From Microbacterium sp. Bi121 (lineage in GTDB: Bacteria; Actinomycetota; Actinomycetes; Actinomycetales; Microbacteriaceae), in NCBI RefSeq assembly GCF_918698005.1, contig NZ_CAKKLJ010000002.1:248001-312000 (forward strand): a DNA stretch of 64,000 bases. Direction: 5' to 3'. The position numbers and the translations under genes are program-made. The notes under the pieces were generated by a model. That model was not told where the DNA came from. It worked only from the letters and a program-made list of their open reading frames with translations, and did no database searches. Every line of letters starts with the position of its first letter. Positions within the stretch are counted from its first letter, which is position 1. Below are positions 42,669 to 57,483 of the stretch, piece after piece.

Positions 42669-42776
42669 CGCATTTTGTGCGGGTTCGGAGCCTGCACGCT
42701 GGCTGACAGTTCGTGCGACACGCCGGTTTCTTATGCGGATCTATGAATCCCAGTGGCATCATCTCGCAACTTCAGT

Positions 42777-42782
42777 CACACT
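42777..42782 (+). promoter_or_regulatory. -10 box CACACT, leaderless-type promoter
   Basis: It lies six bases before ATG 42789 of the LGFP-repeat gene. The first base departs from the usual T. Confidence 0.4.
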
Positions 42783-42788
42783 AGTCAC

Positions 42789-45512
42789 ATGTCTCGTCGT
42801 GCCCAACGCTCCGGATCCGTGCGTCACCGTACTCGGTTCCTGACCGTATTCGTCGCCGCCATCGCCGTCGTCATCGGCACGGTCGCGCCGCTTGAGTCGG
42901 CGACGGCGTCTGCAGCGATGTCCTCGTCGACGAGCCTCGCGCGGTCGACGGGCGATGTGACGCAGACGGGCATGGTCAAGACGTCGCTTGCCGGGTTCAA
43001 TCCCGGCAACATCATCAGCGATGCGATGTTCACGAACTCGGGCACGATGACCGAGGCGCAGATCCAGTCGTTCCTGAACGGGAAAGTCGCGAAGTGCGTC
43101 GTCGGCAAGGACGAGGACGGTCTGCCGTTCGTCTGCCTCAAGGACTTGAAAGTACCGACGCAGTCGAAGGCGGCCGACAAGTACTGCTCGGCGTACGCAG
43201 GCGCTTCGAGTGAGCCAGCGGCGCGGATTCTCTACAAGGTGGCTCGCGCCTGCAACATCAATCCGCAGGTGCTGATCGTCATGCTCCAGAAGGAGCAGGG
43301 TCTCGTGAACCACGTGTGGCCGAGCAACTGGCGATACAACAAGGCGATGGGCCAGGCGTGCCCGGATACGGCACCCTGCGACACGGCATTCGCCGGCTTC
43401 TTCGCGCAGGTGTACGGCGCTGCGCGCCAGATGCAGATCTACATGGAGGGCAAGTACTTCCAGTGGTACAAGGCCGGCAGGACCTGGCCGGTGCTCTACC
43501 ACCCGAATGCCTCCTGCGGTACGGCGCCCGTGTATATCGCGAACAAGGCGACAGAGGCCCTTTACTACTACACGCCGTACCAGCCCAACGCGGCAGCGCT
43601 GAAGGCGGGTTACGGGACGGGCGACGGCTGCTCGAGCTATGGCAACCGAAACTTCTACAACTACTTCACCGACTGGTTCGGGTCGACGCAGACCCCGGCG
43701 ATCACACCCACCGGAGCCATCGCCACCGAGTGGAAGCGCATGGGCGGCGCTTCGGGCGCGCTGGGGAAGCCCGCTGCGGTAGTGCAGGCCGTAACGGACC
43801 CGAACGGCAACGGGTTCGCGCAGAAGTTCGCGGGAGGTTGGATCCACTCATCCGCGGCGGGGACGTTCTCCTCACTGACGCCGATCATGACGGCTTACAG
43901 CGCGGCCGGCTGGTTGCGTGGAAGCCTCGGATGGCCGCTCTCGCAGACGGCCTGCGCCAACGGCTCCTGCACGCAATTGTTCGACGGTGGGATCATCTCC
44001 TACGCGAGCGGAAAACCAGCGACGACGACTCTCGGCCTCACAGAGCGGTCGTTGTATGCGGCATCCCCCGGGCTGAGCACTGTCGGAGCGATGGTCGGCG
44101 AACTGCAGGTGGTGGGTGACCCGAACGGCGGGGGGCTCGCTCAGAAGTATCAGAACGGGTGGATGCATGCCTCCTCTTCAGGAGCGTTCTGGTCATCGAC
44201 GGGCATCATGACCGGCTACAGCCGCGCCGGGTGGCTTCGCGGTTTCCTCGGCTGGCCGATCAAGGCGGAGCAGATCGTTAGCGATCCGAATGGGAACGGT
44301 GTCGCGCAGGAGTTCCAAGGCGGCTGGGTGCACTCTTCAACCGCAGGCACGTTCAGTTCGTCGACCGAGATGATGAAGGCTTATAGCGCTGCCGGCTGGG
44401 TGCGCGGACAGCTCGGCTGGCCGACGAGCGACGAGGCGTGCACCGGGCAGGCGTGTGCCCAGGCCTTCACCAAGGGTGTGATCGGATACGTCAAGGGCCA
44501 GGGCGCCGTCACGAAGATCGGCGTCACACCCGCAGCGATGAAGACGGCCGCCACCCAACAGGTGAACGTGACGAAGTCGCTCGGTGCCGCACAGGCACCG
44601 CTCCAGGTGATCGCGGATCCGAACGGCAGCGGGCTGGCTCAGAAGTTCGCGAACGGATGGGTGCACTCCTCGGATAAGGGAACGTTCGTCTCCTCGACGA
44701 GCGTCATGACCGCGTACAGCTCCGCTGGGTGGTTGCGTGGCACGCTCGGCTGGCCCACGGGGATCGAGACCTGCTCTGGAACGCTGTGCTCTCAGCCGTT
44801 CGAAGGGGGCACGATCGCCTACTCGCCCGGCAAACCCGCTGTCGCGTTGCATGGCATCGCTGCCCAGGCGTTTGCAACGCTCCGATCCCCGCAGGCGACC
44901 GGTATCGGTGCTGCGGCTGCTGGCGTCCAGGTCGTGAAGGACCCGAACGGAAACGGGCTCGCTCGCAAGTACGCGGCAGGATGGCTGCATGCCTCGGATC
45001 GAGGAACGTTCTCGTCGAGCCTCAGAATCATGACCGGCTACAGCGCTGCGGGCTGGCTTCGTGGTTCGCTGGGGTGGCCGGTGAAGGCTGAGCAGACTGT
45101 GACCGATCCGAAGGGCAATGGTGTCGCTCAGGAGTTCGAGGGTGGCTGGATCCACTCGTCGAACGCAGGCACGTACGCGTCCTCCAGCAAGATCATGGCA
45201 GGGTACAGCGCGGCGGGCTGGGTGCGTGGCGACCTGGGCTGGCCGGTGAAGGCCGAGCAGGTCGTGACCGACCGCAACGGCAATGGCGTCGCCCAGTCGT
45301 TCCAGGGCGGTTGGGTGCATTCATCGGCCGCAGGAACGTTCGCATCGTCGTCGACCGTGATGAAGGCGTACAGCGCGGCCGGATGGCTGCGGGGCAAGCT
45401 CGGATGGCCGACGGGAGCCGAGACCTGCTCCGGGACAACGTGCTCGCAGACGTTCACAGGCGGCACGATCTCGTACTCTCCTGGCAAGCCGGCGGTCACC
45501 ACCTTCAAGTGA
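42789..45512 (+). CDS. secreted LGFP-repeat protein with N-terminal lysozyme-like domain
   Basis: A 907-residue exported protein. A signal peptide (about 1-43, hydrophobic core TVFVAAIAVVIGTVAP, AxA-type site near TASAA) is followed by a unique domain (about 55-300) with AARILYKVARACNINPQVLIVMLQKEQGL, a helical arrangement that looks lysozyme-like with a candidate catalytic Glu in QKEQG. The rest is eleven LGFP-type units of 45-60 residues with the core GW(L/V)RG-LGWP. LGFP repeats are known from corynebacterial envelope proteins and are thought to bind the wall. It lies directly upstream of the nonulosonic acid operon. Activity of the N-terminal domain is unproven. Confidence 0.85.
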   Translation: MSRRAQRSGSVRHRTRFLTVFVAAIAVVIGTVAPLESATASAAMSSSTSLARSTGDVTQTGMVKTSLAGFNPGNIISDAMFTNSGTMTEAQIQSFLNGKVAKCVVGKDEDGLPFVCLKDLKVPTQSKAADKYCSAYAGASSEPAARILYKVARACNINPQVLIVMLQKEQGLVNHVWPSNWRYNKAMGQACPDTAPCDTAFAGFFAQVYGAARQMQIYMEGKYFQWYKAGRTWPVLYHPNASCGTAPVYIANKATEALYYYTPYQPNAAALKAGYGTGDGCSSYGNRNFYNYFTDWFGSTQTPAITPTGAIATEWKRMGGASGALGKPAAVVQAVTDPNGNGFAQKFAGGWIHSSAAGTFSSLTPIMTAYSAAGWLRGSLGWPLSQTACANGSCTQLFDGGIISYASGKPATTTLGLTERSLYAASPGLSTVGAMVGELQVVGDPNGGGLAQKYQNGWMHASSSGAFWSSTGIMTGYSRAGWLRGFLGWPIKAEQIVSDPNGNGVAQEFQGGWVHSSTAGTFSSSTEMMKAYSAAGWVRGQLGWPTSDEACTGQACAQAFTKGVIGYVKGQGAVTKIGVTPAAMKTAATQQVNVTKSLGAAQAPLQVIADPNGSGLAQKFANGWVHSSDKGTFVSSTSVMTAYSSAGWLRGTLGWPTGIETCSGTLCSQPFEGGTIAYSPGKPAVALHGIAAQAFATLRSPQATGIGAAAAGVQVVKDPNGNGLARKYAAGWLHASDRGTFSSSLRIMTGYSAAGWLRGSLGWPVKAEQTVTDPKGNGVAQEFEGGWIHSSNAGTYASSSKIMAGYSAAGWVRGDLGWPVKAEQVVTDRNGNGVAQSFQGGWVHSSAAGTFASSSTVMKAYSAAGWLRGKLGWPTGAETCSGTTCSQTFTGGTISYSPGKPAVTTFK
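43727..45509 (+). repeat. array of eleven LGFP-type units in two alternating types
   Basis: Type A units carry DPNGNG...AQ(K/E)F..GW(V/I)HSS..GTF..S....M.AYSAA. Type C units carry a cysteine pair (for example ETCSGTTCSQ) and GG.I.Y..GKPA. The order is A-C, A-A-C, A-C, A-A-A-C, so each group ends in a type C unit. The repeats are also obvious at DNA level. Confidence 0.8.
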
Positions 45513-45544: not shown

Positions 45545-46540
45545 ATGAAGGTACTGCTCACAGGCGCTGACGGTTTCATCGGATCGCACCTCGCGGAGCA
45601 GCTCGTCAGGGATGGACACGACGTCCGGGCACTCGTGCTGTACAACTCGTTCGACTCGCGTGGATGGCTTGACGGGATCTCTCCCGACGTGGCCTCTCAG
45701 ATCGAGTTCCTCCCTGGAGACATCCGCGATCCCGCGCTGATGATGTCGGCTGTTCGCGACCGCGACGCCGTCCTGCACCTCGCCGCGCTGATAGCGATCC
45801 CGTACTCGTACGCTGCTCCCGACCTCTACGTCCAGACGAACATCCAGGGCACCCTGAACCTCCTCAATGCGGCGCGGGCGGCGGACGTGAGCCGTTTCAT
45901 CCACACTTCGACGAGCGAGGTCTACGGCACGGCTCGCTACGTCCCCATGGACGAGGGGCACCCGCTCCAGGGGCAGTCGCCGTACTCGGCCTCCAAGATC
46001 GCCGCCGACCAGATGGTCAACTCATATCACGCGTCCTTCGGCCTGCCGACGGTGACGATCCGCCCGTTCAACACGTTCGGGCCCCGGCAATCGGCGCGTG
46101 CCGTGATTCCTACGATCATCAGCCAGCTCGCGGCGGGTAAGCGTGAGATCCAGCTCGGCGCGCTGACACCGACGCGCGACTTCACCTACGTGCCTGACAC
46201 TGTGGCGGGCTTCACTACTGCACTCACGAGCACCGCGGGAGTTGGCGAGGTCATCAACCTCGGCGTCGGCTTCGAGGTCTCGATCGGGCGCACTTTCGAG
46301 CTCATCGCCGAAGCCATGGGAATCGACGCGGTCGCCACCGAAGACCCCGCGCGACTGCGCCCGGCCAACTCCGAGGTCGAACGACTCTTCTCCGACAACA
46401 CCAAGGCGAGGGAGATCCTCGGCTGGGCTCCCCGCTTCAGCGGCGACGACGGCTTCCGCGAGGGGCTGCGCGAGACCGCGCAGTGGTTCACCGACCCGGA
46501 CAACCTCGCCCGCTATCGGACCGACGCGTACGTCGTATGA
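45545..46540 (+). CDS. legB: NAD-dependent sugar-nucleotide 4,6-dehydratase, LegB-like
   Basis: A 331-residue extended SDR. The NAD site is GADGFIGSH (7-15), and the catalytic residues are Thr123/Ser124/Glu125 (TSTSEVYG) with Tyr147 and Lys151 (YSASK). The adjacent Asp/Glu replacing the second Ser of the triad is typical of 4,6-dehydratases. FNTFGPRQSARAVIPTII and TPTRDFTYVPDTV match the LegB branch (GDP- or UDP-GlcNAc 4,6-dehydratase of legionaminic acid synthesis) better than GDP-mannose dehydratase. It is the first gene of the operon and should make the 4-keto-6-deoxy intermediate for LegC. Confidence 0.85.
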   Translation: MKVLLTGADGFIGSHLAEQLVRDGHDVRALVLYNSFDSRGWLDGISPDVASQIEFLPGDIRDPALMMSAVRDRDAVLHLAALIAIPYSYAAPDLYVQTNIQGTLNLLNAARAADVSRFIHTSTSEVYGTARYVPMDEGHPLQGQSPYSASKIAADQMVNSYHASFGLPTVTIRPFNTFGPRQSARAVIPTIISQLAAGKREIQLGALTPTRDFTYVPDTVAGFTTALTSTAGVGEVINLGVGFEVSIGRTFELIAEAMGIDAVATEDPARLRPANSEVERLFSDNTKAREILGWAPRFSGDDGFREGLRETAQWFTDPDNLARYRTDAYVV

Positions 46541-47694
46541 GCGTCGCGGCAGAGGTCGTCGGCGCCATCCGCAGTGTCGTCGGCGACGACTCGTTCGTCG
46601 GACTCCACATCCCGAGTATCACCGAGCGTGAGAAGGCCAGGGTGCTCGAGTGTCTGGACTCGACTTTCGTCTCCAGCGTCGGCACATTCGTCACAGATTT
46701 CGAGGACGGCATCGCCTCGTACACCGGCGCGGCGCACGCGATCGCCGTCTCCAACGGAACTTCCGCGCTCCAGGTGGCTCTCGAACTCGCCGGTGTGCGT
46801 CCTGGCGACGCGGTGATCGTCCCGACACTCTCATTCGTCGCGACAGCCAACGCCGTCTCCCATGCCGGGGCCGTGCCGTTCTTCGTCGACAGTGACGAGG
46901 AGACGCTCGGGATGTCCGTCGAAGCTGTCGCGCGTGTACTGCGTGCCGCAAGCTCCGGGCCTGACGGCCTGGTCGACGGAAGCACGGGGCGGCGGATCGC
47001 CGCGATCGTTCCGATGCACACCCTCGGCCATCCGATGCGGATCGTCGAGCTGGTGGCGCTCGGGGACGAGTACGGCGTGCCCGTCGTCGAGGACGCCGCT
47101 GAGTCCCTCGGCAGCCGGGTCGCTGACATGCACACCGGAATCTTCGGCCGCCTGGGCATTCTCAGTTTCAACGGGAACAAGATCCTCACAACGGGCGGCG
47201 GCGGCATGATTCTCACCGCGGACGACGAACTCGCCCGACGCGCCAAACACGTGACCACGACGGCGAAGCTTCCACATCGCTGGGAGTTCGAACACGACGA
47301 GGTCGCCTACAACTACCGAATGCCGAATCTGAACGCCGCACTGGGCGTGGCCCAACTCGAGCGGCTACCCGAGTTTCTCTCGGCCAAGCGCATGCTCGCC
47401 GGCCGGTACCGGTCGGCGTTCGCCGACATGCCTGGACTGCACTTCCTCGCCGAACCGACCGGAACAACCAGCAACTACTGGCTCTGCGCGCTGCGCGTCG
47501 ATGGCGGCTTGCGCGAGCGTGACGCGGTGCTGGAGGCGACCAACGACGCCGGGCTGCAGTGCCGACCGTTCTGGAATCTGCTCCACAGGCAAGCGCCGTA
47601 CCGCGATCTTCCCCGTGCAGAGACTCCAGTCGCCGAGGCGTTGCATGCCAGTACGATCTGCATCCCCAGCACGCCGTCGCTGGCGGCCGCATGA
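46537..47694 (+). CDS. legC: LegC-family PLP aminotransferase
   Basis: A 385-residue DegT/DnrJ/EryC1-type aminotransferase. The PLP lysine is Lys215 in SFNGNKILTTGGGG, and Asp186 (VVEDAAESLGS) binds the pyridine nitrogen. The N-terminal segment VGLHIPSITEREKARVLECLDSTFVSSVG is the LegC signature region. It should add the C4 amino group to the keto sugar made by LegB. ATG 46537 overlaps the legB stop by four bases. An unusually short DegT-family C-terminus (PSTPSLAAA) suggests slight truncation relative to relatives, without loss of known key residues. Confidence 0.87.
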   Translation: MSVAAEVVGAIRSVVGDDSFVGLHIPSITEREKARVLECLDSTFVSSVGTFVTDFEDGIASYTGAAHAIAVSNGTSALQVALELAGVRPGDAVIVPTLSFVATANAVSHAGAVPFFVDSDEETLGMSVEAVARVLRAASSGPDGLVDGSTGRRIAAIVPMHTLGHPMRIVELVALGDEYGVPVVEDAAESLGSRVADMHTGIFGRLGILSFNGNKILTTGGGGMILTADDELARRAKHVTTTAKLPHRWEFEHDEVAYNYRMPNLNAALGVAQLERLPEFLSAKRMLAGRYRSAFADMPGLHFLAEPTGTTSNYWLCALRVDGGLRERDAVLEATNDAGLQCRPFWNLLHRQAPYRDLPRAETPVAEALHASTICIPSTPSLAAA

Positions 47695-48857
47695 GGACGA
47701 TCGCGGTTCTGACCGGGACGCGGGCGGACTACGGATTGCTGCGGGGCCTTCTTCGTGCCATCGAAGACGACCCGGAGCTCGCGCTGCGGCTGATCGCCAC
47801 CGGCACCCATCTCGTCGACGAGTTCGGACGGACGAGCAGCGAGATCGAGGCTGACGGATTCGCCGTCGCCGCAGCCGTTCCGATCTGGACCGGCTGCGAC
47901 GACCGGCTGGCCGTTGCCGCAGATGTGGGTGCTGCGATACCCCGCTATGCACACGCGCTCGCCGAGATCGCTCCCGATGTGCTGGTAGTTCTCGGTGACA
48001 GGCTCGAAGCTTTCGCCGCAGCGACCGCGGCGACGATCCTCTCCGTGCCCGTCGCGCACATCCACGGCGGCGAGGTCACCGAAGGCGCGATGGATGACGC
48101 GCTGCGGCACTCGCTGACGAAGATGTCATACCTGCATTTCGCGTCCACAGAGGATCATCGCCGCCGCGTCATCCAGCTCGGGGAAGCGCCGGACCGCGTG
48201 TACGCCCATGGCGCCCCGATCGTCGACGCGCTGGATGCTCTTGAATTGCTGTCCAAGGGTGAGGTCGAGCGTCGATTCGGCATCCGCCTGCCTGAACCGA
48301 CGGCTCTGGTCACCTTCCATCCTGCCGTGATGGATGCCGCAGAGCCCGAGGTTCTCGTCGATGAGCTTCTCCATGGCCTCCTCGCCGTGAACGGGCTGCA
48401 CATGGTCATCACGGGGTCGAACTCGGACATCGGCACGGCGGACGTGCGAGCCCGCATCGCGGCCTTCGTCACCGAGCATCCCGACAGAGTCGACTTCGTC
48501 GAGTCCTTTGGTCAGCTCGGGTACCTCAGCGCGATGTCCTCCGTCGCCGTCGTCGCGGGCAACTCGTCGAGCACCGTGCTCGAGGCTCCGGTCCTCGGCG
48601 TTCCATCCGTGCTCATCGGGGACCGACAGAAGGGTCGCCCGATCGCGGAGTCCGTCGCTGTCCCCCGGCCGGATCGCCACTCGATCGCGGCCGCCGTGCG
48701 CGCGGCGATCGAGCGAACCTCGACCACGGTCGAGACCAGCATCTTCGGGGGCTCCGGCTTCGCTGAACGCACCGCCGCTACCCTGCGTGACGCGACCATT
48801 CCGCGCCCGCCACGCAAGTCCTTCCACGACCTTCAGGGAGAACCCGCCCATGACTGA
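47691..48857 (+). CDS. legG: hydrolysing sugar-nucleotide 2-epimerase, NeuC/LegG-like
   Basis: A 388-residue GT-B-fold epimerase of the NeuC family, which releases the nucleotide diphosphate while inverting C2 to give the ManNAc-type (6-deoxy diamino) sugar for the synthase. Features are VLTGTRADYGLLRGLL, VLVVLGDRLEAFAAA, HIHGGEVTEGAMDDALRHSLTKMS, VTFHPAV, GSNSDIG and VVAGNSSSTVLEAP. In a Leg pathway it acts on the nucleotide-linked 2,4-diacetamido sugar. The start overlaps the legC stop by four bases and its own stop overlaps legI by eight. Confidence 0.88.
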   Translation: MRTIAVLTGTRADYGLLRGLLRAIEDDPELALRLIATGTHLVDEFGRTSSEIEADGFAVAAAVPIWTGCDDRLAVAADVGAAIPRYAHALAEIAPDVLVVLGDRLEAFAAATAATILSVPVAHIHGGEVTEGAMDDALRHSLTKMSYLHFASTEDHRRRVIQLGEAPDRVYAHGAPIVDALDALELLSKGEVERRFGIRLPEPTALVTFHPAVMDAAEPEVLVDELLHGLLAVNGLHMVITGSNSDIGTADVRARIAAFVTEHPDRVDFVESFGQLGYLSAMSSVAVVAGNSSSTVLEAPVLGVPSVLIGDRQKGRPIAESVAVPRPDRHSIAAAVRAAIERTSTTVETSIFGGSGFAERTAATLRDATIPRPPRKSFHDLQGEPAHD

Positions 48858-49947
48858 CCAGGTTTTCGTCATCGCAGAAGCAGGAGTGAACCACAACGGT
48901 TCGCTCGAGACGGCCAAGGAACTCGTCGATCTCGCCGCGTCCGCCGGCGCTGACGCCGTGAAGTTCCAGACGTTCTCGGCTGATGCACTTGCGCTGCAGA
49001 GCGCCGCGCTTGCCGACTACCAGCGACTGTCCGACGAAGACGGTCGCACGCAGCATGATCTGCTGCGACAGCTCGAACTGACGCACGAAGAGTTCCGCTC
49101 CCTGCGTGACCACTGTGACTCACGCGGCATCCAGTTCCTGTCGACGGCCTTTGACGAGGCGGGGCTCGACTTCCTCGTCGGCGAACTCGGCATCCCGATC
49201 GTCAAGATCGCCTCGGGTGACCTGACGTTCGCCCCGCTACTGGTCGCCGCCGGTCGTACGGGGCTTCCGATCATCCTCTCAACCGGGATGGCCGAGATTC
49301 CCGAAATCCAGCGGGCGCTGCGATTCCTTGCAGCCGGGGTGGCGCAGGCACATGGCGTACTGCCGGTCGGCACACGCCTGCACGAGGACAAACTCGCCCG
49401 TGCCTGGGCGCAACGAGACCAGTTCGTCGACTTCTCGCAGCACGTGACGATCCTGCACTGCACCACCGAGTATCCGGCGGCTGACGAGCATCTCAACCTT
49501 CGCGCGATGCAGACAATCGCCGAGACGTTCGGACACAGGGTCGGCTATTCGGATCACTCGCTGGGATCGCTGGCCTCTGTCATCGCGGTCGGCCTGGGCG
49601 CCACTGTCGTTGAGAAGCACTTCACCTTCGACGTGAACGCAGACGGCCCAGACCACGCTGCGTCGCTCGACCCGGACGGGCTGCACGCGTATGTCGCAGA
49701 CCTGCGACGCGTGCCGGTGATGCTCGGTTCGCGCGAGAAGCACTGTCAGCCGGTGGAGGAGGGGAATCGCGCGGTCGTGCGCCGCAGCCTCGTCGCCACG
49801 CGCACCATCGCCGCCGGCGCGACGATCGTCGAGGATGACGTCGCCTGCTTCCGACCTGCATCGGGCCGGACATCGTTCGATTTCTGGGAGGTCGTCGGCA
49901 CTAGCGCCAGTCGGGCGTACCGCAGGGGTGATCTGATCGATGCCTGA
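48850..49947 (+). CDS. legI: nonulosonic acid synthase, NeuB/LegI-like
   Basis: A 365-residue PEP-dependent condensing enzyme. The TIM-barrel domain begins FVIAEAGVNHNGSLETAKEL and contains AVKFQTF, QFLSTAFDE, VKIASGDLTFAPLL, LHCTTEYPA, and GYSDHSLG, all NeuB hallmarks. A C-terminal SAF antifreeze-like domain (about 305-365) has RRSLVATRTIAAG. It should condense PEP with the 6-deoxy-diacetamido-mannose product of LegG to give legionaminic acid. GGAG lies upstream of the ATG, and the gene also overlaps legG. Confidence 0.92.
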   Translation: MTDQVFVIAEAGVNHNGSLETAKELVDLAASAGADAVKFQTFSADALALQSAALADYQRLSDEDGRTQHDLLRQLELTHEEFRSLRDHCDSRGIQFLSTAFDEAGLDFLVGELGIPIVKIASGDLTFAPLLVAAGRTGLPIILSTGMAEIPEIQRALRFLAAGVAQAHGVLPVGTRLHEDKLARAWAQRDQFVDFSQHVTILHCTTEYPAADEHLNLRAMQTIAETFGHRVGYSDHSLGSLASVIAVGLGATVVEKHFTFDVNADGPDHAASLDPDGLHAYVADLRRVPVMLGSREKHCQPVEEGNRAVVRRSLVATRTIAAGATIVEDDVACFRPASGRTSFDFWEVVGTSASRAYRRGDLIDA

Positions 49948-50578
49948 CCTCATCCTTCTCGGCGGCGGGGGACATGCGCGATCCGTGCTCGCTGCGCTTC
50001 TCGCCGCGGGGGAGAGTGTGCGCGGATACCTCGCCCCCGAGCCGTCGCCGGACTGGTCGCTGCCCTACCTGGGCGACGATGACGTCCTCGACGGTCTGGA
50101 TCCGGCGGACGTCCGCATCGTGAACGGACTAGGCTCAATCGCCTCCACAGCAGCCCGCCGCCGGTTGCACGATCACACAATCGCGCGCGGGTTCACCGTC
50201 GTCGGCGTGATTCATCCCCGCGCGATCGTCGATCCTGAAGCCAGCATCGATCCGTCGGCGCAGGTGCTCGCCGGCGCCATCGTGAGCGCCGGGGCGACGA
50301 TCGACGTGGACGCCATCGTCAACAGCGGAGCGATCGTCGAGCACGACTGCATCGTGGAGGCGCATGCGCACGTCTCGCCGGGGGCTGTACTGGGCGGGGA
50401 GGTCCGTATCGGCGGCGGCGCCCACATCGGGCTCGGCTCCCGTGTGCTACAAGGGCTCACGATAGGGTCGGGGAGTGTCGTCGGTGCGGGAGCGGTCGTG
50501 ATCTCGGACGTGGCTCCGGGCGTCACAGTGGTCGGCGTGCCCGCGCGGCCCCGCCCGAACAAGGAAGTGCATGCATGA
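49940..50578 (+). CDS. PglD/NeuD-type sugar O/N-acetyltransferase (candidate LegH)
   Basis: A 212-residue left-handed beta-helix acetyltransferase. The N-terminal PglD-like domain begins LILLGGGGHARSVLAALLAAG, and the hexapeptide-repeat part includes IDPSAQVLAGAIVSAGATIDVDAIV in segments, EHDCIVEAHAHVSPGA (the His region used in catalysis) and GAGAVVISDVAPGVTVVGVPAR. In this operon it is the only acetyltransferase, so it most likely acetylates the C4 amino group made by LegC. A NeuD-like late O-acetylation role is the alternative. It overlaps both neighbours. Confidence 0.82.
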   Translation: MPDLILLGGGGHARSVLAALLAAGESVRGYLAPEPSPDWSLPYLGDDDVLDGLDPADVRIVNGLGSIASTAARRRLHDHTIARGFTVVGVIHPRAIVDPEASIDPSAQVLAGAIVSAGATIDVDAIVNSGAIVEHDCIVEAHAHVSPGAVLGGEVRIGGGAHIGLGSRVLQGLTIGSGSVVGAGAVVISDVAPGVTVVGVPARPRPNKEVHA

Positions 50579-51621
50579 TCGACAGGACGGACCTGATCGT
50601 TGCGCCGGACACGACGATCAGGACGACATTGATACACCTGGACCGCAGCCGCCTTCAAGTCGTGTTCGTCGAGGACGTCGAGGGTCGGCTGGTCGGTGCC
50701 GTCAGCGACGGCGACGTGCGTCGAGGACTGCTCTCGGGCTCCGGGTTGGAGGACCGTGTTGAGGCAGTGATGAATCGGACTCCGGCCACCGTTGCTCCGA
50801 CCGCGAGCCAGGAAGTCGTCGACGAGCTCAAGTCGCGCCGCGGCATCCGAGTGGTCGCGGTCGTCGACGACGCCGGGCGAATGGTCGATGTGGTGGCGGA
50901 GGGCGACCGCATCGCGACGCCTCTGCCCACGCCGGTCGTGCTGATGGCCGGCGGTCGGGGACAGAGGCTCTATCCGATCACGAAGGACATCCCCAAACCG
51001 CTGGTGCCGCTGGGCGACGTGCCGATGATCGATATCATCCTCAGCCGACTGTACGATCAGGGCTTCCGTCGGGTGCATGTCTCGGTGAATCACCTGGGTC
51101 ATCTCATCGAGGAGCATCTCGGAGACGGTGCAGAGCACGGCCTCGAGATCACGTATCTGCATGAACCAGCGCCACTGGGGACCGCCGGCGCTCTGGCGCA
51201 GCTCCGTGGTGCCGTCGATGAGCCCTTCGTGGTGATGAACTCCGACCTGCTCACCCAGGTCGATCTTCGTCGCATGCTCGCATCCCACACGGCTGCCGGA
51301 CACACGGCCACCATCGGCGCGCGCGAGTACGGGTTCGAGATCCCGTTCGGGGTGATTCGACGCGAAGGCGACCGGGTAACCGCGCTCGCGGAGAAGCCCT
51401 ATCACAGCGAGCTCGTCAGCGCCGGCATCTATGTGCTGGACCCGAGAGTGCTGGAGTCGCTCGCGGCCGACGAGTACTGCGACATGCCGACGGTGCTCGC
51501 CCGGCTCATGGACGAAGGTCGGTCCGTCGGAGCCTTCGAGATCCACGAGGAGTGGATCGACGTGGGGCGCCCAGAGGATCTTGAGCGCGCTCGACAGGCG
51601 TGGGAACGGAGCGGACGATGA
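50575..51621 (+). CDS. ptmE: CBS-domain nucleotidyltransferase, PtmE-like (glucosamine-1-phosphate guanylyltransferase candidate)
   Basis: A 348-residue fusion of two N-terminal CBS motifs (about 5-115, with VEDVEGRLVGAVSDGDVRRG and VVDDAGRMVDVVAEGDRI) and a sugar-1-phosphate nucleotidyltransferase domain (about 118-348) with VVLMAGGRGQRLYPITKDIPKPLVPL in segments, VSVNHLGHLIEEHLGDG and EWIDVGRPEDLERA. This CBS plus transferase layout is that of Campylobacter PtmE, which makes GDP-GlcN to feed LegB. Its presence suggests a GDP-linked rather than UDP-linked route. Nucleotide specificity is inference. Confidence 0.82.
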   Translation: MIDRTDLIVAPDTTIRTTLIHLDRSRLQVVFVEDVEGRLVGAVSDGDVRRGLLSGSGLEDRVEAVMNRTPATVAPTASQEVVDELKSRRGIRVVAVVDDAGRMVDVVAEGDRIATPLPTPVVLMAGGRGQRLYPITKDIPKPLVPLGDVPMIDIILSRLYDQGFRRVHVSVNHLGHLIEEHLGDGAEHGLEITYLHEPAPLGTAGALAQLRGAVDEPFVVMNSDLLTQVDLRRMLASHTAAGHTATIGAREYGFEIPFGVIRREGDRVTALAEKPYHSELVSAGIYVLDPRVLESLAADEYCDMPTVLARLMDEGRSVGAFEIHEEWIDVGRPEDLERARQAWERSGR

Positions 51622-52316
51622 GGATCTGCACGATAACGGTGAGAGCAGGATCGAAAGGCGTGCCGGGGAAGAACCTCCGTATCGTGGCAGGCAGACCGCT
51701 GTTCGGCCACTCGGTGGCGCAGGCCGTCGCCACCGGACTGTTCGACGAGGTCGTGGTCTCCAGCGACTCGGACGAGATCCTGGCTCTAGCCCCCACGTTC
51801 GGTGCCACCGGGGTCATCCGCCGCCCGCCGGAGATGGCGACGGACACCGCGGGCAAGGTCCCGGCCATCGCCCACGCCGTGCGCAGCACGGAAGATCGCA
51901 CCGGTGCCCGATACGACGTGTGTGTCGATCTCGACGCGACCAGCCCGCTTCGCACCGTCGACGACATCCGCACTGCCGTGTCGATGTTCGAAGAGGTCCG
52001 TCCAGAGTCCCTGATCACAGGGTCGGAAGCACGCCGGAATCCGTATTTCAACCTTGTCGAAGAGCAGCCGGACGGCACTGTCGCGGTGAGCAAGAAGCCC
52101 GACGATGCGGTTCTGCGCCGACAGGATGCGCCTCGTTGCTTCGATATGAACGGCTCGATCTACGTCTGGCGCCGGGAGTCGCTGCTGGAGGATCAAGTGG
52201 TGTTCCTTCCGTCAACGATCCTGTACGAGATGCCGGCGGAGCGATCCATCGACGTCGACAGCGAGTTCGATTTCCGCATCGTCGAATGGCTGATGGACCA
52301 GCGGGTCGACCTGTGA
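51618..52316 (+). CDS. legF: CMP-nonulosonic acid cytidylyltransferase, NeuA/LegF-like
   Basis: A 232-residue cytidylyltransferase. The CTP-binding signature is RAGSKGVPGKNLR near the N-terminus, followed by VVVSSDSDEIL, CVDLDATSPLRTVDDI and the late FDMNGSIYVWRRESL and IDVDSEFDFRIVEWL. It should activate legionaminic acid as CMP-Leg, the donor for transfer. ATG 51618 overlaps the ptmE-like stop by four bases; the frame start at 51600 lies inside that gene. Its own stop overlaps the GTG of the transferase candidate. Confidence 0.9.
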   Translation: MRICTITVRAGSKGVPGKNLRIVAGRPLFGHSVAQAVATGLFDEVVVSSDSDEILALAPTFGATGVIRRPPEMATDTAGKVPAIAHAVRSTEDRTGARYDVCVDLDATSPLRTVDDIRTAVSMFEEVRPESLITGSEARRNPYFNLVEEQPDGTVAVSKKPDDAVLRRQDAPRCFDMNGSIYVWRRESLLEDQVVFLPSTILYEMPAERSIDVDSEFDFRIVEWLMDQRVDL

Positions 52317-53788
52317 CCGATCACGCCGATCTCGATGGACGCACCTCGGATGCCGTGCGCGCCATCCTCGAACTGGAGGAGGAGTCGCCTGACTCGCTCT
52401 TCGAGGTGCTTCCAGGGGCCACTGTTCCGTTCTGGGCGCACGTGCGCGTCCAGATCGCCTGGGCGCTCGGCGAACGGCAGACGGGGAGCGTGTCCGTCGC
52501 GTCGGAATCCACGTGGACGCGTTGGGGCGAGTTCAGGCGCGTCGTCCGCGGCCACCTCCCCAGCCGATGGGATGCCGTGCGCCACGGCCGCGCACACGAC
52601 GTATGCTTCTACGTCTCCGGTACGACGCTCACCGTCGCAGGTGATCGTGCGCGTAACTGGCTCGTGGACGACTTCGCCTTCGTGACACCCGGCGCGGTCG
52701 TCGTGCAGAAGAAGCCGCTCCCTGCGCCCGCCGGAGCGCCGCTGTTCCGACCGACGCTGAGCATGGAGCCCGCGACAGCCCGGGCCAGGTGGCGCGAGCG
52801 CGGCGCGATGCTGCCCACCGGATTCGCAGACGGTGTGCGACGACTGCTCCGTGAGTACGCGTCGAGGCTCGGAGTCGAGGCCGACGCCTTCGACGACATC
52901 GGCACGCGCGCGCTGCGGACGGAACGTCTTCGTCCGTTCGAGATGGACGAACTGCGTCGGATGCTGGACAGGATGCGCCCACGCCTTGTCGTGTTCGACA
53001 ACGGATCGTATTCGTATCACGGCGAGACGGTCGGTGCGATGAAGGACGCAGGCGCGTACGTCGTCGAACCGCAGCACGGCTGGATTGGTCCCTCGCATGC
53101 CGCCTACAACTACGGGCGAGCATTCCAGGAGCCATCGCTTCGACGCGCCCTCCCGGACGAGGTGCTGACGTTCGGGGACTACTGGACGGATTCGATCCGT
53201 CACCCCGGTCGAGTCACAACCATCGGCAAGCCTCATCTCGAGCGTCAGGCGGCGTTGGCCGAGGCCGAGCGCCCGAGACGGATACTCGTCATCTCCTCAC
53301 GCACCGATCCGAGCGCGACAGATGGGTTCGTCGCCGATCTGCACGCCGCAGTGGGCGGTGACTGGGCGATCGCGTTCCGTCCGCATCCGGGCGAGCGCGC
53401 GGAGACAGCACGACGGTACCCGCGGATCGCGTCGACTCCCGGCATCGCCGTGGACGTCGAACCCGACGTTTACGAGTCCCTGAAGCATGCTGCCGTGGTC
53501 ATCGGGGAGGCGAGCACGGTGCTGTTCGAAGCACGCGCATTCGGCTGCACGGTGATCGCGCGCGACAGCGCATTCGCGCAAAACGTCATCGGCGACGCAT
53601 TCGGTGTGCGCGTCGTCGACGTCCCCGGCGTCGCGGCGAGGCTCGCCGACATCGAGCACGGAGGGCGGTTCGTCGCGACGGCCGACCCCGCGATCTGGGC
53701 GCCGGATGCCGTTGCCGCCTACGCGCAGTGGCTGGAAAGACGTGTCGCCGACGACGACGCGCATGCGACGCGCACGCGTCCGCGATGA
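52313..53788 (+). CDS. unassigned GT-B-like transferase, candidate nonulosonic acid transferase
   Basis: A 491-residue protein with no signal peptide or membrane helix. I do not recognise a defined family. The C-terminal half resembles the CDP-glycerol glycerophosphotransferase/polysialyltransferase type of GT-B fold: VFDNGSYSYHG, VEPQHGWIGPSHAAYNYG with a His in the place of the catalytic WHG, LTFGDYWTDSI, ILVISSRTDPS, AFRPHPGE, and VVIGEASTVLFEARAFGCTV as a donor-phosphate loop. As the last gene of the CMP-legionaminic acid operon it is the natural candidate to use CMP-Leg. GTG 52313 overlaps the legF stop; the long upstream frame is chance. Confidence 0.7.
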   Translation: MTDHADLDGRTSDAVRAILELEEESPDSLFEVLPGATVPFWAHVRVQIAWALGERQTGSVSVASESTWTRWGEFRRVVRGHLPSRWDAVRHGRAHDVCFYVSGTTLTVAGDRARNWLVDDFAFVTPGAVVVQKKPLPAPAGAPLFRPTLSMEPATARARWRERGAMLPTGFADGVRRLLREYASRLGVEADAFDDIGTRALRTERLRPFEMDELRRMLDRMRPRLVVFDNGSYSYHGETVGAMKDAGAYVVEPQHGWIGPSHAAYNYGRAFQEPSLRRALPDEVLTFGDYWTDSIRHPGRVTTIGKPHLERQAALAEAERPRRILVISSRTDPSATDGFVADLHAAVGGDWAIAFRPHPGERAETARRYPRIASTPGIAVDVEPDVYESLKHAAVVIGEASTVLFEARAFGCTVIARDSAFAQNVIGDAFGVRVVDVPGVAARLADIEHGGRFVATADPAIWAPDAVAAYAQWLERRVADDDAHATRTRPR

Positions 53789-53855: not shown

Positions 53856-54797
53856 ATGAGTAGGCCCGTGACTGACACCCGAGATCTTTTCGCCGCTGTC
53901 CCGCGCAACCAGTTCGACACACCGGGCAAGAGCCGTGGCCTGATCGACGTGGTGCGCTGGCGCTACCTTCTCCTGCTCCTAGTGCGCACAGGTGTCACCA
54001 CGCGGTACCGCAACTCCGTGCTCGGCTGGACATGGTCGTACGTGCGTCCCGGCGCCCAGTTCCTGGTGTTCTGGGTGGTTCTCGGACTTTTCCTGAACCT
54101 CGATCGGGGCATCCCGAACTATGCGGTGTACCTCTTCTCGGGGATCATCGTCATCAACCTTTTCTCCGAGGCGTTCAAGAACGCGACGACGTCGATCGTC
54201 GGCAATGCGCCGCTGGTACGGAAGGTCTTCCTGCCGCGGCAGTTGTTCGCGGTCTCTGCTGCCATCGTGGCATTGGTGCACTTCCTGCCGCAGCTCGCGC
54301 TGCTGTTGCTGGTCTGCCTCGTGCTCGGCTGGATCACGCACGTGTCGCTCCTCGGAGTGCTAGCGATCTTCGCAGCAATCGCACTCGTACTCCTATTCAG
54401 CCTGGGTCTCGGTCTGCTGTTCGGCGCGCTCAACGTGCGCTATCGGGATGCCGAGAACATCGTCGAACTCCTCCTGCTACTGGCCACGTGGGCGTCGCCG
54501 GTTCTGTACAGCTGGACTCAGGTGCAGGATGCGATCGTCAGCAAGCTCGGCTGGCCGCAGTGGCTCGTGGAGGTCTACCTTCTGAACCCGATCACACAGG
54601 CCGTGGAGTTATTCCACTACGCGTTCTGGCGCCCGGTTTCCGAGGGAACGATCACGATCGAGGGGATCGGCATGGCCGATCTGCCTCCGAATCTGGGCTG
54701 GAATACCCTGTGGACGTTCCTCATCGCCATCGTCACTCTGCTGATCGGACAGGCTGTCTTCCGCCGCCTCGAGGGAAGGTTCGCCCAGGACCTATGA
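53856..54797 (+). CDS. polysaccharide ABC exporter permease (TarG/Wzm-like)
   Basis: A 313-residue ABC-2 permease with about six membrane helices. The N-terminal cytoplasmic part has DVVRWRYLLLLLVRTGVTTRYRNSVLGWTWSYVRPG in segments, which matches the TagG/RfbA/Wzm family, and GNAPLVRKVFLPRQLFAVSA is the coupling helix region. It should form the pore that flips a completed lipid-linked polymer. GTG 53868 is an alternative start. The stop overlaps the ATP-binding gene by four bases. Confidence 0.9.
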   Translation: MSRPVTDTRDLFAAVPRNQFDTPGKSRGLIDVVRWRYLLLLLVRTGVTTRYRNSVLGWTWSYVRPGAQFLVFWVVLGLFLNLDRGIPNYAVYLFSGIIVINLFSEAFKNATTSIVGNAPLVRKVFLPRQLFAVSAAIVALVHFLPQLALLLLVCLVLGWITHVSLLGVLAIFAAIALVLLFSLGLGLLFGALNVRYRDAENIVELLLLLATWASPVLYSWTQVQDAIVSKLGWPQWLVEVYLLNPITQAVELFHYAFWRPVSEGTITIEGIGMADLPPNLGWNTLWTFLIAIVTLLIGQAVFRRLEGRFAQDL

Positions 54798-55531
54798 CTG
54801 CGCACACCGTGTCCAAGCCCAGCATCATCATCGACGACGCTCGCAAGCGCTTCACCCTCAATCACGCGTTCTCGCTCAAGGACACCGTCGTGTCGTGGAT
54901 CAAGCGACGCAAACTCACCAGCGAATTCGAAGCGCTCAAGGGGGTCGACCTCGTCATTGAAGAGGGCGAGTCAGTGGCGATCCTCGGCTTTAACGGATCC
55001 GGCAAGTCCACCCTGCTCAAGCTCATCTCCGGTGTGATGGAGCCTGACGAGGGCGATGTCCTCACTCGTGGTCGGGTCGCCGGCCTCATCGAGGTCGGTG
55101 CGGGTTTTCATCCCGAACTCTCCGGGCGAGAGAATGTGTTCCTGAACGCCGCGATCCTCGGGATGAAACGGCATGAGATTGAGGAACGCTACGATGAGAT
55201 CGTCGCGTTCAGCGAAATCGAGCAGTTCATCGACCAGGAGGTCAAGCACTACTCGTCGGGCATGTTCATGCGTCTTGCGTTCTCAGTTGCGATCCACGTC
55301 GAACTCGACGTGCTCCTCGTCGATGAGATCCTCTCCGTCGGCGACGCTCCGTTCCGTGAGAAGTGCAGGCTGAAGTTCGAAGAGCTCATCGAGCAGGGCA
55401 AGACGCTTGTCGTAGTCAGCCACGACATGGAGATGGTGCGCGAGCTGTGCACCCGCGGCGTCGTCATCAACAAGGGCGAGGTGGTCTTCGACGGCGACAT
55501 CGAGGGCGCGATCGCGCTGGTAGACCGATGA
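54794..55531 (+). CDS. polysaccharide ABC exporter ATP-binding protein (TarH/Wzt-like)
   Basis: A 245-residue ATPase of the TagH/Wzt group: Walker A GFNGSGKST, the family motif GRVAGLIEVGAGFHPELSGRENV, the signature YSSGMFMRLAFSVA, Walker B LLVDEILSVGD and the switch VVSHD. An N-terminal extension before Walker A (about 60 residues, LKDTVVSWIKRRK) is typical of this group. It has no C-terminal carbohydrate-binding domain, so export is probably not gated by a Wzt-type terminal sugar cap. It pairs with the permease encoded upstream. Confidence 0.93.
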   Translation: MTAHTVSKPSIIIDDARKRFTLNHAFSLKDTVVSWIKRRKLTSEFEALKGVDLVIEEGESVAILGFNGSGKSTLLKLISGVMEPDEGDVLTRGRVAGLIEVGAGFHPELSGRENVFLNAAILGMKRHEIEERYDEIVAFSEIEQFIDQEVKHYSSGMFMRLAFSVAIHVELDVLLVDEILSVGDAPFREKCRLKFEELIEQGKTLVVVSHDMEMVRELCTRGVVINKGEVVFDGDIEGAIALVDR

Positions 55532-57465
55532 TTGGCGAGTGGGTCGCCGCGCTGCCGGCGCTGCTCGTCGCGGTTGCGCTCTTCTTCGTACCCGGTGGCG
55601 TCGCACTCGCGGGTATCGGGGTGCGCCGCCTGCCCCTCGTTGCGTTCGCACCCCCGGTGAGTGCGATCATGCTCGCTGCCGTCGGCTTGATCTTCGGCTT
55701 CGCCGGCGTCTCCTGGAATCCGCTGACCGTCGCGCTAGCGCTGCTGCTGCTCGCCGCAGTCGCCTGGCTGCTGGGTGTCTTCCTCGGGCGCGTGCGTGTC
55801 GAGCATCGGACTTTCGTCGGCAGGACGTGGGTGCTCCCCGTGGCGATCGCGGTCGGGATGCTCGTGACTGGATGGCGGCTGATCGCCTACATCGGACCGG
55901 CGTCGGCGATCTCGCAGACGAACGATGCGGTGTTCCATCTGAATGCCGTCCAGTACATCCTGGACACCTCTGACGCGTCCGTCCTGCACGTGAGCGGCGT
56001 GATCGGTGGGCACAGTTTCTATCCGGCCGTGTGGCACGGCTTCGTCTCACTCATCGTCCTCGTCACAGGGGTGGAGATCCCCGTCGCGGCGAACGTCGTC
56101 ACGCTCGTCATTGGGGCCGGCATCTGGACGCTCGGCATCGCATGGCTGACGCGGGTGCTCACCGGCTCCGGGATCGTTGCAGGGTTCGCGGCTGTGTTCG
56201 CTGGTGCGCTGCAGACCTTCCCGCTGCTGCTGTTTCAATGGGGCGTCCTCTATCCGAACGCGCTGTCGACTGCGCTCGTTCCGGCCGCGGTGGCGGCGGT
56301 GGTATCGCTGCCACGTTGGCTTCTCGCAGACCGCACGGTGCGCCACGGCATCCTCGGAGTGATCCTCGTCGGAATCGCCGCGGTCTCTCTGCTCCTAGCG
56401 CAGCCGTCGACGGCGGTCCCGTGGGCGCTGCTGTGTGCGATCTGGTTCACGTTCTGGATTCTGCGCAACCCTGTGCCGCGCGCCCTTGTGGCAAGACTCG
56501 GTCTCGTCGTCCTCGCGTGGGCGGTCGTCGCAGTGACGTGGCGATACCTCGCATCCGGTACCAGTGGGTCGCACTGGCCTCCGTTCCGGAGCCGCGGGGA
56601 GGCACTTCTCGACATCCTCCTGAACGGGCACATGCGCATCCCGTGGGCCGTGGGCATAAGCGTCCTCATGGTCGTCGGGCTCGCGGTCGCCGTGCGGCGT
56701 CGGCCTCTGCAGTGGTTTGCAGTGGGCTGGGTCGCGGTGAGCGTGCTCTACTTCCTCGTCGCCACCGTCGGTCGCGAGAACATCCGCAACGGGGTGCTCG
56801 CCGTGTGGTACGCCGACCCGTACCGTCTCGCAGCTCTCGCCCCGATCGTCGTCGTGCCTCTTGCCGCCATCGGCTTCGATGCGCTAGTGCGGCTGGTCCG
56901 GCAGCGGGTGCTGCGAAAGCATGGCGATGACGACACGCGCACCACCCTGATCCCGCTCGCGGTCGCTGTGGTGGGCATGGTGGTGCTGGTGCTGCTGCGC
57001 CCGGTCGCGATGCCCCAGTTCCTCGACGCGACCGTCGAACTGCACTCGAAGTACGCCGTCGAGGAAAGCGACTATCTCGAGCCGGATGAACGGGAGCTTC
57101 TCGAAGATCTGCGAGAGTACGTGCCGCCAGGGGATCGCATCATCGCCAATCCGTCCACGGGAGCGGGATTCGGGTACATGCTCGCCGGCTACGACGTGTT
57201 CCCTCGCACCTGGTCGCCCCCCGCTGGCAAGGCGTGGAACGTCCTCGCGGAGGATCTGCGGGATGCCGCATCCGATCCCGCCGTGTGCACGGCGTTGCAC
57301 GCGTTTGGCGACCCCGAGTTCGTGCTCGACTTCGGGCCGGGCGAGGCGCGGGCCGGCCGGTGGCTGATGCCGGGGATGACCGATTTCGCTGGCGAGGACG
57401 GCTTCGAGCTTGTTGCAGAGCGGGGTGATGCGTCTCTGTGGCGCATCACGGCATGCGCTCCGTGA
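55528..57465 (+). CDS. large polytopic membrane protein (DUF6541-like)
   Basis: A 645-residue protein with roughly thirteen to fourteen membrane helices in the first ~510 residues and a ~140-residue C-terminal domain that should face outward (starting near QFLDATVELHSKYAVEESDY). A conserved-looking luminal loop has TNDAVFHLNAVQYILDTSD and FYPAVWHGF, similar to DUF6541 proteins of actinobacterial envelope loci, some of which resemble GT-C glycosyltransferases. It overlaps the ATPase gene by four bases, so a role in lipid-linked glycan modification or polymer handling is likely but unproven. Confidence 0.75.
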   Translation: MIGEWVAALPALLVAVALFFVPGGVALAGIGVRRLPLVAFAPPVSAIMLAAVGLIFGFAGVSWNPLTVALALLLLAAVAWLLGVFLGRVRVEHRTFVGRTWVLPVAIAVGMLVTGWRLIAYIGPASAISQTNDAVFHLNAVQYILDTSDASVLHVSGVIGGHSFYPAVWHGFVSLIVLVTGVEIPVAANVVTLVIGAGIWTLGIAWLTRVLTGSGIVAGFAAVFAGALQTFPLLLFQWGVLYPNALSTALVPAAVAAVVSLPRWLLADRTVRHGILGVILVGIAAVSLLLAQPSTAVPWALLCAIWFTFWILRNPVPRALVARLGLVVLAWAVVAVTWRYLASGTSGSHWPPFRSRGEALLDILLNGHMRIPWAVGISVLMVVGLAVAVRRRPLQWFAVGWVAVSVLYFLVATVGRENIRNGVLAVWYADPYRLAALAPIVVVPLAAIGFDALVRLVRQRVLRKHGDDDTRTTLIPLAVAVVGMVVLVLLRPVAMPQFLDATVELHSKYAVEESDYLEPDERELLEDLREYVPPGDRIIANPSTGAGFGYMLAGYDVFPRTWSPPAGKAWNVLAEDLRDAASDPAVCTALHAFGDPEFVLDFGPGEARAGRWLMPGMTDFAGEDGFELVAERGDASLWRITACAP

Positions 57466-57483
57466 AACGGTCGGCCGAGTCGG

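Follow-up and report, generated by a model that had tools for sequence, protein, structure and literature searches.

Organization of the locus

The window analyzed here is a stretch of 64,000 nucleotides from Microbacterium sp. Bi121 (bases 248001-312000 of contig C2, NZ_CAKKLJ010000002.1; the genome comprises 3.09 Mb in 20 contigs). At positions 45545-53788, it contains eight contiguous genes that, judging by the families of the encoded proteins, very probably represent an operon for the production of legionaminic acid (Leg). The last of these genes, denoted g42, encodes a candidate transferase for this nonulosonic acid:

45545..46540, + strand: LegB, NAD-dependent 4,6-dehydratase (TIGR04180, 461.9 bits; identity to Campylobacter jejuni LegB, motifs, tree)
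46537..47694, + strand: LegC, pyridoxal phosphate-dependent aminotransferase (TIGR04181, 490.3 bits; tree, SFNGNK motif)
47691..48857, + strand: LegG/NeuC, hydrolyzing nucleoside diphosphate-sugar 2-epimerase (TIGR03568, 363.7 bits; PDB match)
48850..49947, + strand: LegI/NeuB, nonulosonate synthase (TIGR03569, 399.7 bits; PF03102, 271.6 bits)
49940..50578, + strand: PglD/NeuD-type acetyltransferase, proposed LegH (TIGR03570, 186.7 bits, cut-off 160.8)
50575..51621, + strand: CBS and nucleotidyltransferase domains, PtmE-like, proposed GDP-glucosamine (GlcN)/N-acetylglucosamine (GlcNAc) pyrophosphorylase (PF00571, PF00483)
51618..52316, + strand: LegF/NeuA, CMP-nonulosonate cytidylyltransferase (PF02348, 66.7 bits; PDB 1eyr)
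52313..53788, + strand: g42, GTG start, candidate CMP-nonulosonate transferase of the glycosyltransferase B (GT-B) type (predicted fold, genomic association)

An earlier note on this DNA had described eight genes overlapping by 4-8 bases. This description is confirmed, with the families as stated and the gene starts corrected; the successive junctions overlap by 4, 4, 8, 8, 4, 4, and 4 bases. A gene caller that was trained on the codon usage of the window chooses the same eight frames, with the starts of PglD and LegF placed slightly late. Nine distinct relatives (L024, L034-L039, L041, and L042) have this gene set, g42 included, in identical order, with PglD missing only in L024, so that the arrangement is not a product of chance. 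In one more relative (L040), the same operon is interrupted by a contig end. In L024 (positions 8254-10415, genome G022), the CBS-nucleotidyltransferase gene directly follows LegI, and a NeuD-family gene (190.7 bits) is found elsewhere in the genome.

Identity of the encoded pathway

The operon likely makes CMP-N,N'-diacetyllegionaminic acid via a GDP-linked route, and a dedicated GT-B transferase would then build this product into an exported surface glycan. In the proposed pathway, the CBS-nucleotidyltransferase would convert GlcN(Ac)-1-phosphate and GTP to the activated sugar, LegB would remove water to yield the 4-keto-6-deoxy sugar, and LegC would add the 4-amino group, the product being acetylated by the PglD-type enzyme. 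LegG would then epimerize C-2 and cut off the nucleotide, LegI would perform the condensation with phosphoenolpyruvate, and LegF would form the CMP sugar, from which g42 would transfer the nonulosonate; export of the glycan could be mediated by the ATP-binding cassette (ABC) pair encoded behind g42.

The family assignments are of unequal stringency. LegB is 51% identical to the annotated C. jejuni LegB and 63% identical to the Rhizobium LegB, and retains the motifs TSTSEVYG and YSASK (TSE and YxxxK). LegC, with 40% identity to its C. jejuni counterpart, passes TIGR04181 (cut-off 420 bits). LegG exceeds the TIGR03568 cut-off of 235.9 bits and, in the PDB, matches GDP/UDP-N,N'-diacetylbacillosamine 2-epimerase best (271.6 bits, compared to 136.8 bits for the bifunctional UDP-GlcNAc 2-epimerase/ManNAc kinase). 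LegI and the PglD-type acetyltransferase pass TIGR03569 and TIGR03570, respectively; these two models and TIGR03568 do not separate Leg from Neu enzymes. LegF is similar to the CMP-N-acetylneuraminic acid (Neu5Ac) synthetase 1eyr (E 1.2e-32). The CBS-nucleotidyltransferase shows 37-43% identity to proteins in nine plasmid records; in the five of these records that were read (L100, L102, L103, L105, and L106), its relatives share a locus with LegB and LegC. The dehydratase, aminotransferase, and synthase all retain their motifs, the catalytic meaning of which follows from the SDR, DegT, and NeuB families.

The earlier note had called for profile searches against the Leg, pseudaminic acid (Pse), and Neu families. 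In these, the LegC, NeuC, NeuB, and NeuD models are passed, the PseB, PseC, and PseI models fail (PseB 63.6 of 407.75, PseC 223.7 of 423.5, and PseI 243.7 of 340.25 bits in NCBIfam), and LegB and LegF stay below the NCBIfam cut-offs.

Phylogenetic analysis of LegB (33 sequences) and LegC (37 sequences) places both window proteins with Leg enzymes. LegC belongs to a clade of 25 sequences (support 99/98) that includes the C. jejuni protein and LegC from alphaproteobacterial Leg operons, and LegB belongs to a set of 24 (80/91) that includes C. jejuni LegB; PseB- and PseC-type sequences and other dehydratases fall outside these groups. Clustering of LegB and LegC with unrelated dehydratases or aminotransferases, which the earlier note had named as evidence against a Leg operon, is thus not found. 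The closest relative of the window LegC is from M. aerolatum (82%), and the window LegB is equally close to the proteins of M. aerolatum and M. murale. The C. jejuni reference sequences come from L099 (NZ_CP154830.1), where legB is annotated as '4,6-dehydratase LegB' and the unannotated legC was found by similarity. This 'plasmid' record is a circle of 2763 bases with legB, a legC-like frame, and little else, and could have arisen by excision or be an artefact of the assembly.

The order of the Leg genes is kept across phyla: in Rhizobium sp. WL3, Sulfitobacter sp. W027, and a sphingomonad, it is legB-legC-neuC-neuB-acetyltransferase-nucleotidyltransferase-neuA, with one extra gene before neuA in two of these. 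A Pse product of the operon was rejected given the sub-threshold PseB, PseC, and PseI scores together with the LegB and LegC trees; Neu5Ac and keto-deoxynonulosonic acid (Kdn) were rejected on the NCBIfam scores and the same trees.

The GDP-linked route is favored by the presence of a PtmE-like gene in 21 of the 22 distinct testable loci that encode a LegB with at least 50% identity (a count from which the window itself, the duplicate loci L023 and L025, and three contigs not exceeding 5.4 kb, namely L099, L112, and L115, are omitted). In C. jejuni, PtmE is a GDP-GlcN pyrophosphorylase. The PtmF and PtmA genes have no match in the Microbacterium-type operons (L024, L034-L039, L041, and L042), so that glucosamine phosphate is presumably supplied by ordinary metabolism. 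Both genes are present in L100, L103, and L105 (Alphaproteobacteria), in L114, L116, and L117 (other Microbacteriaceae), and in L119; genes similar to PtmF and PtmA form part of, or follow, the operons of Rhizobium, Azospirillum, the sphingomonad, and certain other Microbacteriaceae.

Several observations weigh against this reconstruction. LegB scores 13 bits under the TIGR04180 cut-off of 475, LegI passes its own cut-off (399.65 bits) by 0.05 bits, and LegF is under every NCBIfam cut-off, with PseF as the best match (120.1 of 205.7 bits). The LegC clade is impure in that it includes a protein from a bacillosamine-like rhodobacteraceal locus without NeuB (L101), LegC of L119 falls outside the clade even though this locus encodes LegB and LegG- and LegI-like proteins, and the tree program flagged long branches, that of C. 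jejuni among them. In another actinobacterial family, genome G602 (L113) has a LegC over the cut-off and no LegB-type gene in 16 kb (best match 29%). Finally, neither PtmF nor PtmA is among the eight operon genes, the part of the genome to which this search was confined. The statement of the earlier note that the gene set equals the Campylobacter/Legionella Leg pathway is therefore too broad in this respect; its core, the Leg assignment, survives the clustering test and agrees with the gene order shared across phyla.

The alternatives differ in the donor, in the exact product, and in the pathway itself. The same enzymes could start from UDP-GlcNAc, as in the sps pathway of Bacillus subtilis, with the CBS-nucleotidyltransferase serving another sugar: the LegG and LegC models leave the nucleotide unfixed, the operon lacks PtmF and PtmA, and UDP-linked precursors are used in B. 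subtilis, as stated in part of the report on that pathway (PMC7439481). However, the window LegB is of the Campylobacter type whereas the B. subtilis dehydratase SpsM is described in the same source as close to CapE, WbjB, and PseB, and the nucleotidyltransferase gene, besides being nearly universal in the testable loci, is overlapped by its neighbors on both sides; the UDP route appears unlikely. The product might also be another stereoisomer or acylation form of a 5,7-diamino nonulosonate (4- or 8-epi-legionaminic acid or a different N-acyl derivative), considering that the C-8 stereochemistry and the acyl donor are not fixed by sequence and that the G022 operon lacks PglD, with the NeuD-family gene elsewhere. 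Yet there is no extra epimerase or modifying gene among the eight, and LegB and LegC group with Leg enzymes, which makes such a product quite improbable. Production of Neu5Ac or Kdn, with LegB and LegC employed for another sugar, would be compatible with the NeuC and NeuB models, which are common to the Neu and Leg pathways, but is extremely hard to reconcile with the coupling of LegB, LegC, and PglD to NeuC and NeuB here and in eight of the nine whole operons of near relatives (L024 lacking PglD) or with the presence of a separate Kdn/teichulosonate-like locus in the same genome.

The predicted transferase

The protein product of g42 consists of 491 residues and has no match in Pfam (E 0.001), NCBIfam, or the PDB sequences (E 1). 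An AlphaFold2 model built from 15 sequences (mean local confidence, pLDDT, 86.1; global score, pTM, 0.87) predicts a GT-B fold. In a comparison with solved GT-B structures, which speaks only to the families listed in it, the model matches UDP-GlcNAc 2-epimerases (Z up to 16.6), MurG (15.6), the polysialyltransferase 5wcn (15.3, with a root-mean-square deviation of 3.9 over 289 residues), and TarL (14.8); with different families tied in this manner, the model points to GT-B and to nothing more specific. Eight residues (E252, Q254, H255, G256, H358, P359, S401, and T402) are identical in all 17 aligned sequences and form part of three invariant motifs, E252-x-QHGW, R356-x-HPxE, and S401-T402, which are similar to the HP and S-T motifs found in bacterial sialyltransferases. 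The role of the HP motif in these enzymes is described in a passage of PMC7439481. Assignment of g42 to the known polysialyltransferases was rejected given the absence of a PF07388 match and a profile probability of about 9%. When the g42 profile was compared to the DUF6716 protein, the result was 35%, confined to 61 columns.

Evidence on g42 also comes from its genomic association. A profile search of 84,980 species genomes yielded 14 named g42 loci, found by protein similarity alone: nine in Microbacterium and the remaining ones in Cryobacterium, Leucobacter, and metagenome-assembled genomes of Microbacteriaceae, Demequinaceae, and unplaced Actinomycetes. All 14 contain nonulosonate genes, in the examined flanks or just past them, namely Leg genes in 10 (L034-L042 and L045) and Pse genes in four (L043, L044, L046, and L047). 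The Pse models were run on two of the latter, L046 and L047; in both, PseB and PseI are over the cut-off and PseC is just under it. At L043 and L044, the Pse calls are based on an identity of 66-78% to the genes of these two loci; for L044, PseC and PseI are located immediately beyond the flank and are visible in L128. Nonulosonate genes are also present at L024, at L027 (LegB about 10.4 kb from g42), and at L139 and L140, which are g42 loci of other actinobacterial families, for a total of 18 of 18 g42 loci besides the window; L138, on a contig of 3.2 kb, is too short to tell. Duplicate loci (L023=L037, L025=L042, L026=L044, and L028=L046) and L141, which is on the contig of L045, were left out of the counts. 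Weaker g42 matches in G125, G139, and G260 adjoin nonulosonate genes as well. Chance proximity within 10 kb is estimated at well below 1% per locus, NeuB being present in 58 of 150 genomes, usually with one gene per ~3 Mb.

Overall, g42 is rare: it is found in 8 of 299 genomes of the family, 4 of 396 of the phylum, and 5 of 198 of the order (at E 1e-5, three of them weak matches), own genome included in each. The weak matches at the order level (G768, G836, and G875) are near Pse genes. The open frames of L142, L143, and L144, which weakly match the g42 profile and have Pse gene sets nearby, encompass 556-1251 residues and contain HP dipeptides. Because of this length range and because three of the four order-level frames lack the QHG motif, these matches were not counted as family members.

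The relatives of g42 can be read as a family of CMP-nonulosonate transferases, and g42 itself probably attaches legionaminic acid to a surface glycan. A sorting of the g42 phylogeny by donor sugar was tried and is not supported: the Leg and Pse labels require three changes on the tree, and 104 of 500 shuffles are as good. Hence the tree shows no donor specificity, and the transferase family seems to stay constant while the Leg and Pse cassettes change.

This lack of sorting also detracts from the proposed role, as do three further observations. A weak g42 match in G074 (E 7e-5) is not near the NeuB gene of that genome; in the fold comparison, 5wcn is tied or nearly so with UDP-GlcNAc 2-epimerases, MurG, and TarL; and when profiles are compared, the probability of a match to polysialyltransferases is only 9%, even though the HP and S-T motifs align. 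Conceivably, g42 is another glycosyltransferase of the same glycan, with legionaminic acid added by the GT2 or GT4 enzyme encoded nearby or by a distant one. This would be in line with the proximity of other glycosyltransferases, with the unspecific fold matches, and with the dispensability for transfer of both neighbors, SpsA and SpsB, in B. subtilis, as reported in a part of PMC7439481. However, the relatives of g42 adjoin nonulosonate genes regardless of whether these are of the Leg or the Pse type, g42 overlaps LegF by four bases, and L139 and L140 show few matches to the export, acetyltransferase, and uronic acid queries (a query set without GT2 and GT4). On balance, this alternative, although a serious one, seems rather unlikely.

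Distribution of Leg and other nonulosonate genes

Nonulosonate genes are common in Microbacteriaceae, with NeuB-family genes in 58 of 150 genomes, but the Leg branch is patchy. LegC over the cut-off is found in 9 of 299 genomes of the family and 3 of 396 of the phylum, own genome included in each. LegB adjoins LegC in seven of the eight other family genomes, and in the remaining one (G169), the contig begins at LegC; of the two other genomes of the phylum, G714 has LegB. A true-type LegB (459-464 bits; next match 206.5) is present in 4 of 59 genomes of the genus. Matches to LegC below the cut-off (338-402 bits) are more numerous (30 of 299 and 18 of 396 genomes, respectively). Of the six such loci that were read (L119-L124), NeuB matches are present in L119, a Leg-like locus (LegB 57%), and L123, and absent in L120, L121, L122, and L124. 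Considering these two loci and G602, which passes without LegB, the LegC cut-off is no clean border of Leg loci. The G602 locus (L113) combines LegC (482.7 bits) with NeuB-, NeuD-, PtmE-, and NeuA-like genes and possibly represents a different nonulosonate pathway.

In the LegB tree, the proteins of Microbacteriaceae form one group (support 100/100; 14 sequences, one of them from Demequinaceae) and a separate pair (G349 and G162), whereas LegB of G714 and G578, from other families, are located elsewhere again. This scatter suggests that the Leg genes were acquired more than once.

Neighboring genes and the predicted glycan

The unit extends beyond position 53788: after a gap of 67 bases, an ABC permease and ATPase pair and a DUF6541 protein follow, again with overlaps of four bases. 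Upstream, a gene for an LGFP-repeat protein with an apparent signal peptide (by eye) ends 32 bases before LegB. The genes surrounding the operon are:

42753..45512 (start uncertain: 42753 or 42957), + strand: LGFP-repeat protein, probably secreted (Pfam LGFP, 154.9 bits, four stretches)
53856..54797, + strand: ABC-2 permease, polysaccharide export type (PF01061, 54.3 bits)
54794..55531, + strand: ABC ATPase, TagH/Wzt type (NCBIfam teichoic acid and galactan export ATPases best, all below cut-off)
55528..57465, + strand: DUF6541 protein (PF20176, 482.9 bits)
57438..58226, + strand: GT2 glycosyltransferase (PF00535, 73.6 bits)
58223..58624, + strand: small DUF2304 protein (PF10066, 83.8 bits)
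58621..59853, + strand: GT4 glycosyltransferase (PF13579, PF13692)
59850..60461, + strand: hexapeptide acetyltransferase, proposed 3-N-acetyltransferase for 2,3-diacetamido uronic acid (PF00132, 75.3 bits)
60458..61555, + strand: DegT aminotransferase, proposed 3-aminotransferase (PF01041, 400.3 bits)
61552..62538, + strand: Gfo/Idh oxidoreductase, UDP-GlcNAc 3-dehydrogenase-like (NF040723, 208.9 bits, below the cut-off of 450)
62542-64326: MsbA/PglK-like ABC protein
68432-69502 in window numbering, beyond the window: WecB-type epimerase
69549-70844 in window numbering, beyond the window: nucleotide-sugar dehydrogenase

The LGFP-repeat gene is directly upstream of LegB also in L024, L027, L035-L039, L041, and L042, and its product, which varies in length from 773 (L027) to 1089 residues (L024), may bind or carry the glycan. 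The trio of hexapeptide acetyltransferase, DegT aminotransferase, and Gfo/Idh oxidoreductase is found in 12 of the 14 named g42 loci, the exceptions being L047 and the short contig L040. Together with the dehydrogenase and the WecB-type epimerase, this trio fits a pathway for UDP-2,3-diacetamido-2,3-dideoxy uronic acid, so that the glycan, possibly of the wall or capsule, probably contains both legionaminic acid and 2,3-diacetamido-2,3-dideoxy uronic acid. As a tentative proposal with a little less than an even chance of being correct, g42 could be the founder of an undescribed actinobacterial family of GT-B CMP-nonulosonate transferases beside which Leg and Pse cassettes are swapped and which builds an exported wall glycan combining a nonulosonate with this uronic acid.

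Behind DUF6541, the GT2 gene has one of two forms. In L034 and L036-L038, it is encoded on the same strand (67-73% alike), and in L024, L035, L039, L041, and L042, it is encoded on the opposite strand (28-37% alike). In the loci with the second form, DUF6541 is mostly ~30% alike, with 46% in L035. This variation in the region of positions 55528-58624 looks like module exchange. Adjacent to the Leg locus is a locus of the galactofuran-type wall polymer (L048, C2:309500-329000; window positions 62542-76969) that encodes the MsbA/PglK-like ABC protein, three GT4-type proteins, WecB, the nucleotide-sugar dehydrogenase, UDP-galactopyranose mutase, a second ABC-2 pair, and GlfT2. The G+C content at positions 42000-58000 is 0.625-0.674, compared to 0.67-0.72 in nearly all preceding 2 kb windows, with one exception, a dip to 0.654 near 24 kb. 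A lowered G+C content is common in surface-glycan islands.

On contig C3 of the same genome (L029:6541-12466), there is a second nonulosonate locus that consists of genes for a GT2 enzyme, a polysialyltransferase-family protein (PF07388, 58.2 bits; this family is present in 5 of 150 family genomes), a NeuA-HAD fusion, NeuB, and DUF6716, and may be a Kdn/teichulosonic acid locus.

Comparison with known systems

The closest well-known counterpart is the CMP-legionaminic acid pathway of C. jejuni (Leg/Ptm genes), reportedly described by Schoenhofen in 2009. It employs LegB, LegC, LegG, LegI, LegF, an N-acetyltransferase, and a CBS-nucleotidyltransferase, and the same families are encoded here. 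Unlike C. jejuni, the Gram-positive Microbacterium has these genes in one translationally coupled operon with a PglD-type acetyltransferase and its own GT-B candidate, without PtmF and PtmA, and with an ABC exporter behind it. The plasmid operons of Rhizobium sp. WL3 and Sulfitobacter sp. W027 share the Leg gene order with Microbacterium, but that of Rhizobium additionally contains Gfo/Idh (PtmF-like) and SDR (PtmA-like) genes; g42 has no match at E 1e-8 in the seven plasmid loci L100-L106. The polysialyltransferase 5wcn, a member of CAZy family GT38, shares the GT-B fold with the g42 model, and the profile comparison aligns the HP and S-T motifs of g42 with those of polysialyltransferase-family proteins; a difference is that g42 does not match PF07388.

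Among Gram-positive bacteria, B. subtilis spores carry legionaminic acid made by the sps pathway through the UDP route, according to a part of PMC7439481. The two systems are alike in the Gram-positive host, with display of the sugar established in B. subtilis and predicted here, and the transferase is described there as unsolved; they differ in that B. subtilis uses UDP-linked precursors, a dehydratase of another type (SpsM), and the spore crust as the site of display. In Actinobacteria, Kdn-containing teichulosonic acids are nonulosonate wall polymers (passages of PMC11481543 and PMC13011467). The Streptomyces coelicolor locus SCO4873-SCO4882 (PMC13011467, in part) resembles the system proposed here in that it concerns an actinobacterial nonulosonate wall polymer, and the C3 locus may be of the same type; teichulosonic acids differ in that they contain Kdn, and the C3 locus includes a NeuA-HAD fusion along with a gene of the polysialyltransferase family, with no LegB or LegC seen there. 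Pontimonas salivibrio, also of Microbacteriaceae, is said in a passage of PMC6106888 to add sialic acid. The literature searched, mostly outside subscription journals and hence weak evidence of absence, included no paper joining 'legionaminic' with 'Microbacterium' or 'nonulosonic' with 'Microbacteriaceae'. Given the B. subtilis sugar, the actinobacterial Kdn polymers, and the NeuB genes in 58 of 150 family genomes, the emphasis of the earlier note on a nonulosonate pathway outside Gram-negatives was overstated.

Thus, the Leg pathway is already known in kind, and it is for the transferase family that novelty can be claimed. According to passages of a 2020 survey (PMC7725333), 93 of 96 C. jejuni genomes have the GDP route, and 10 genomes of other origin have the UDP route; the present operon would extend the GDP-linked route to Actinobacteria. 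In such bacteria, the sugar may, beyond what the data address, serve wall or phage-related roles rather than host mimicry. Enzymes transferring legionaminic acid to cell surfaces were unreported as of 2020, according to a passage of PMC7439481, so that an unnamed family tracking Leg and Pse genes presents a testable candidate.

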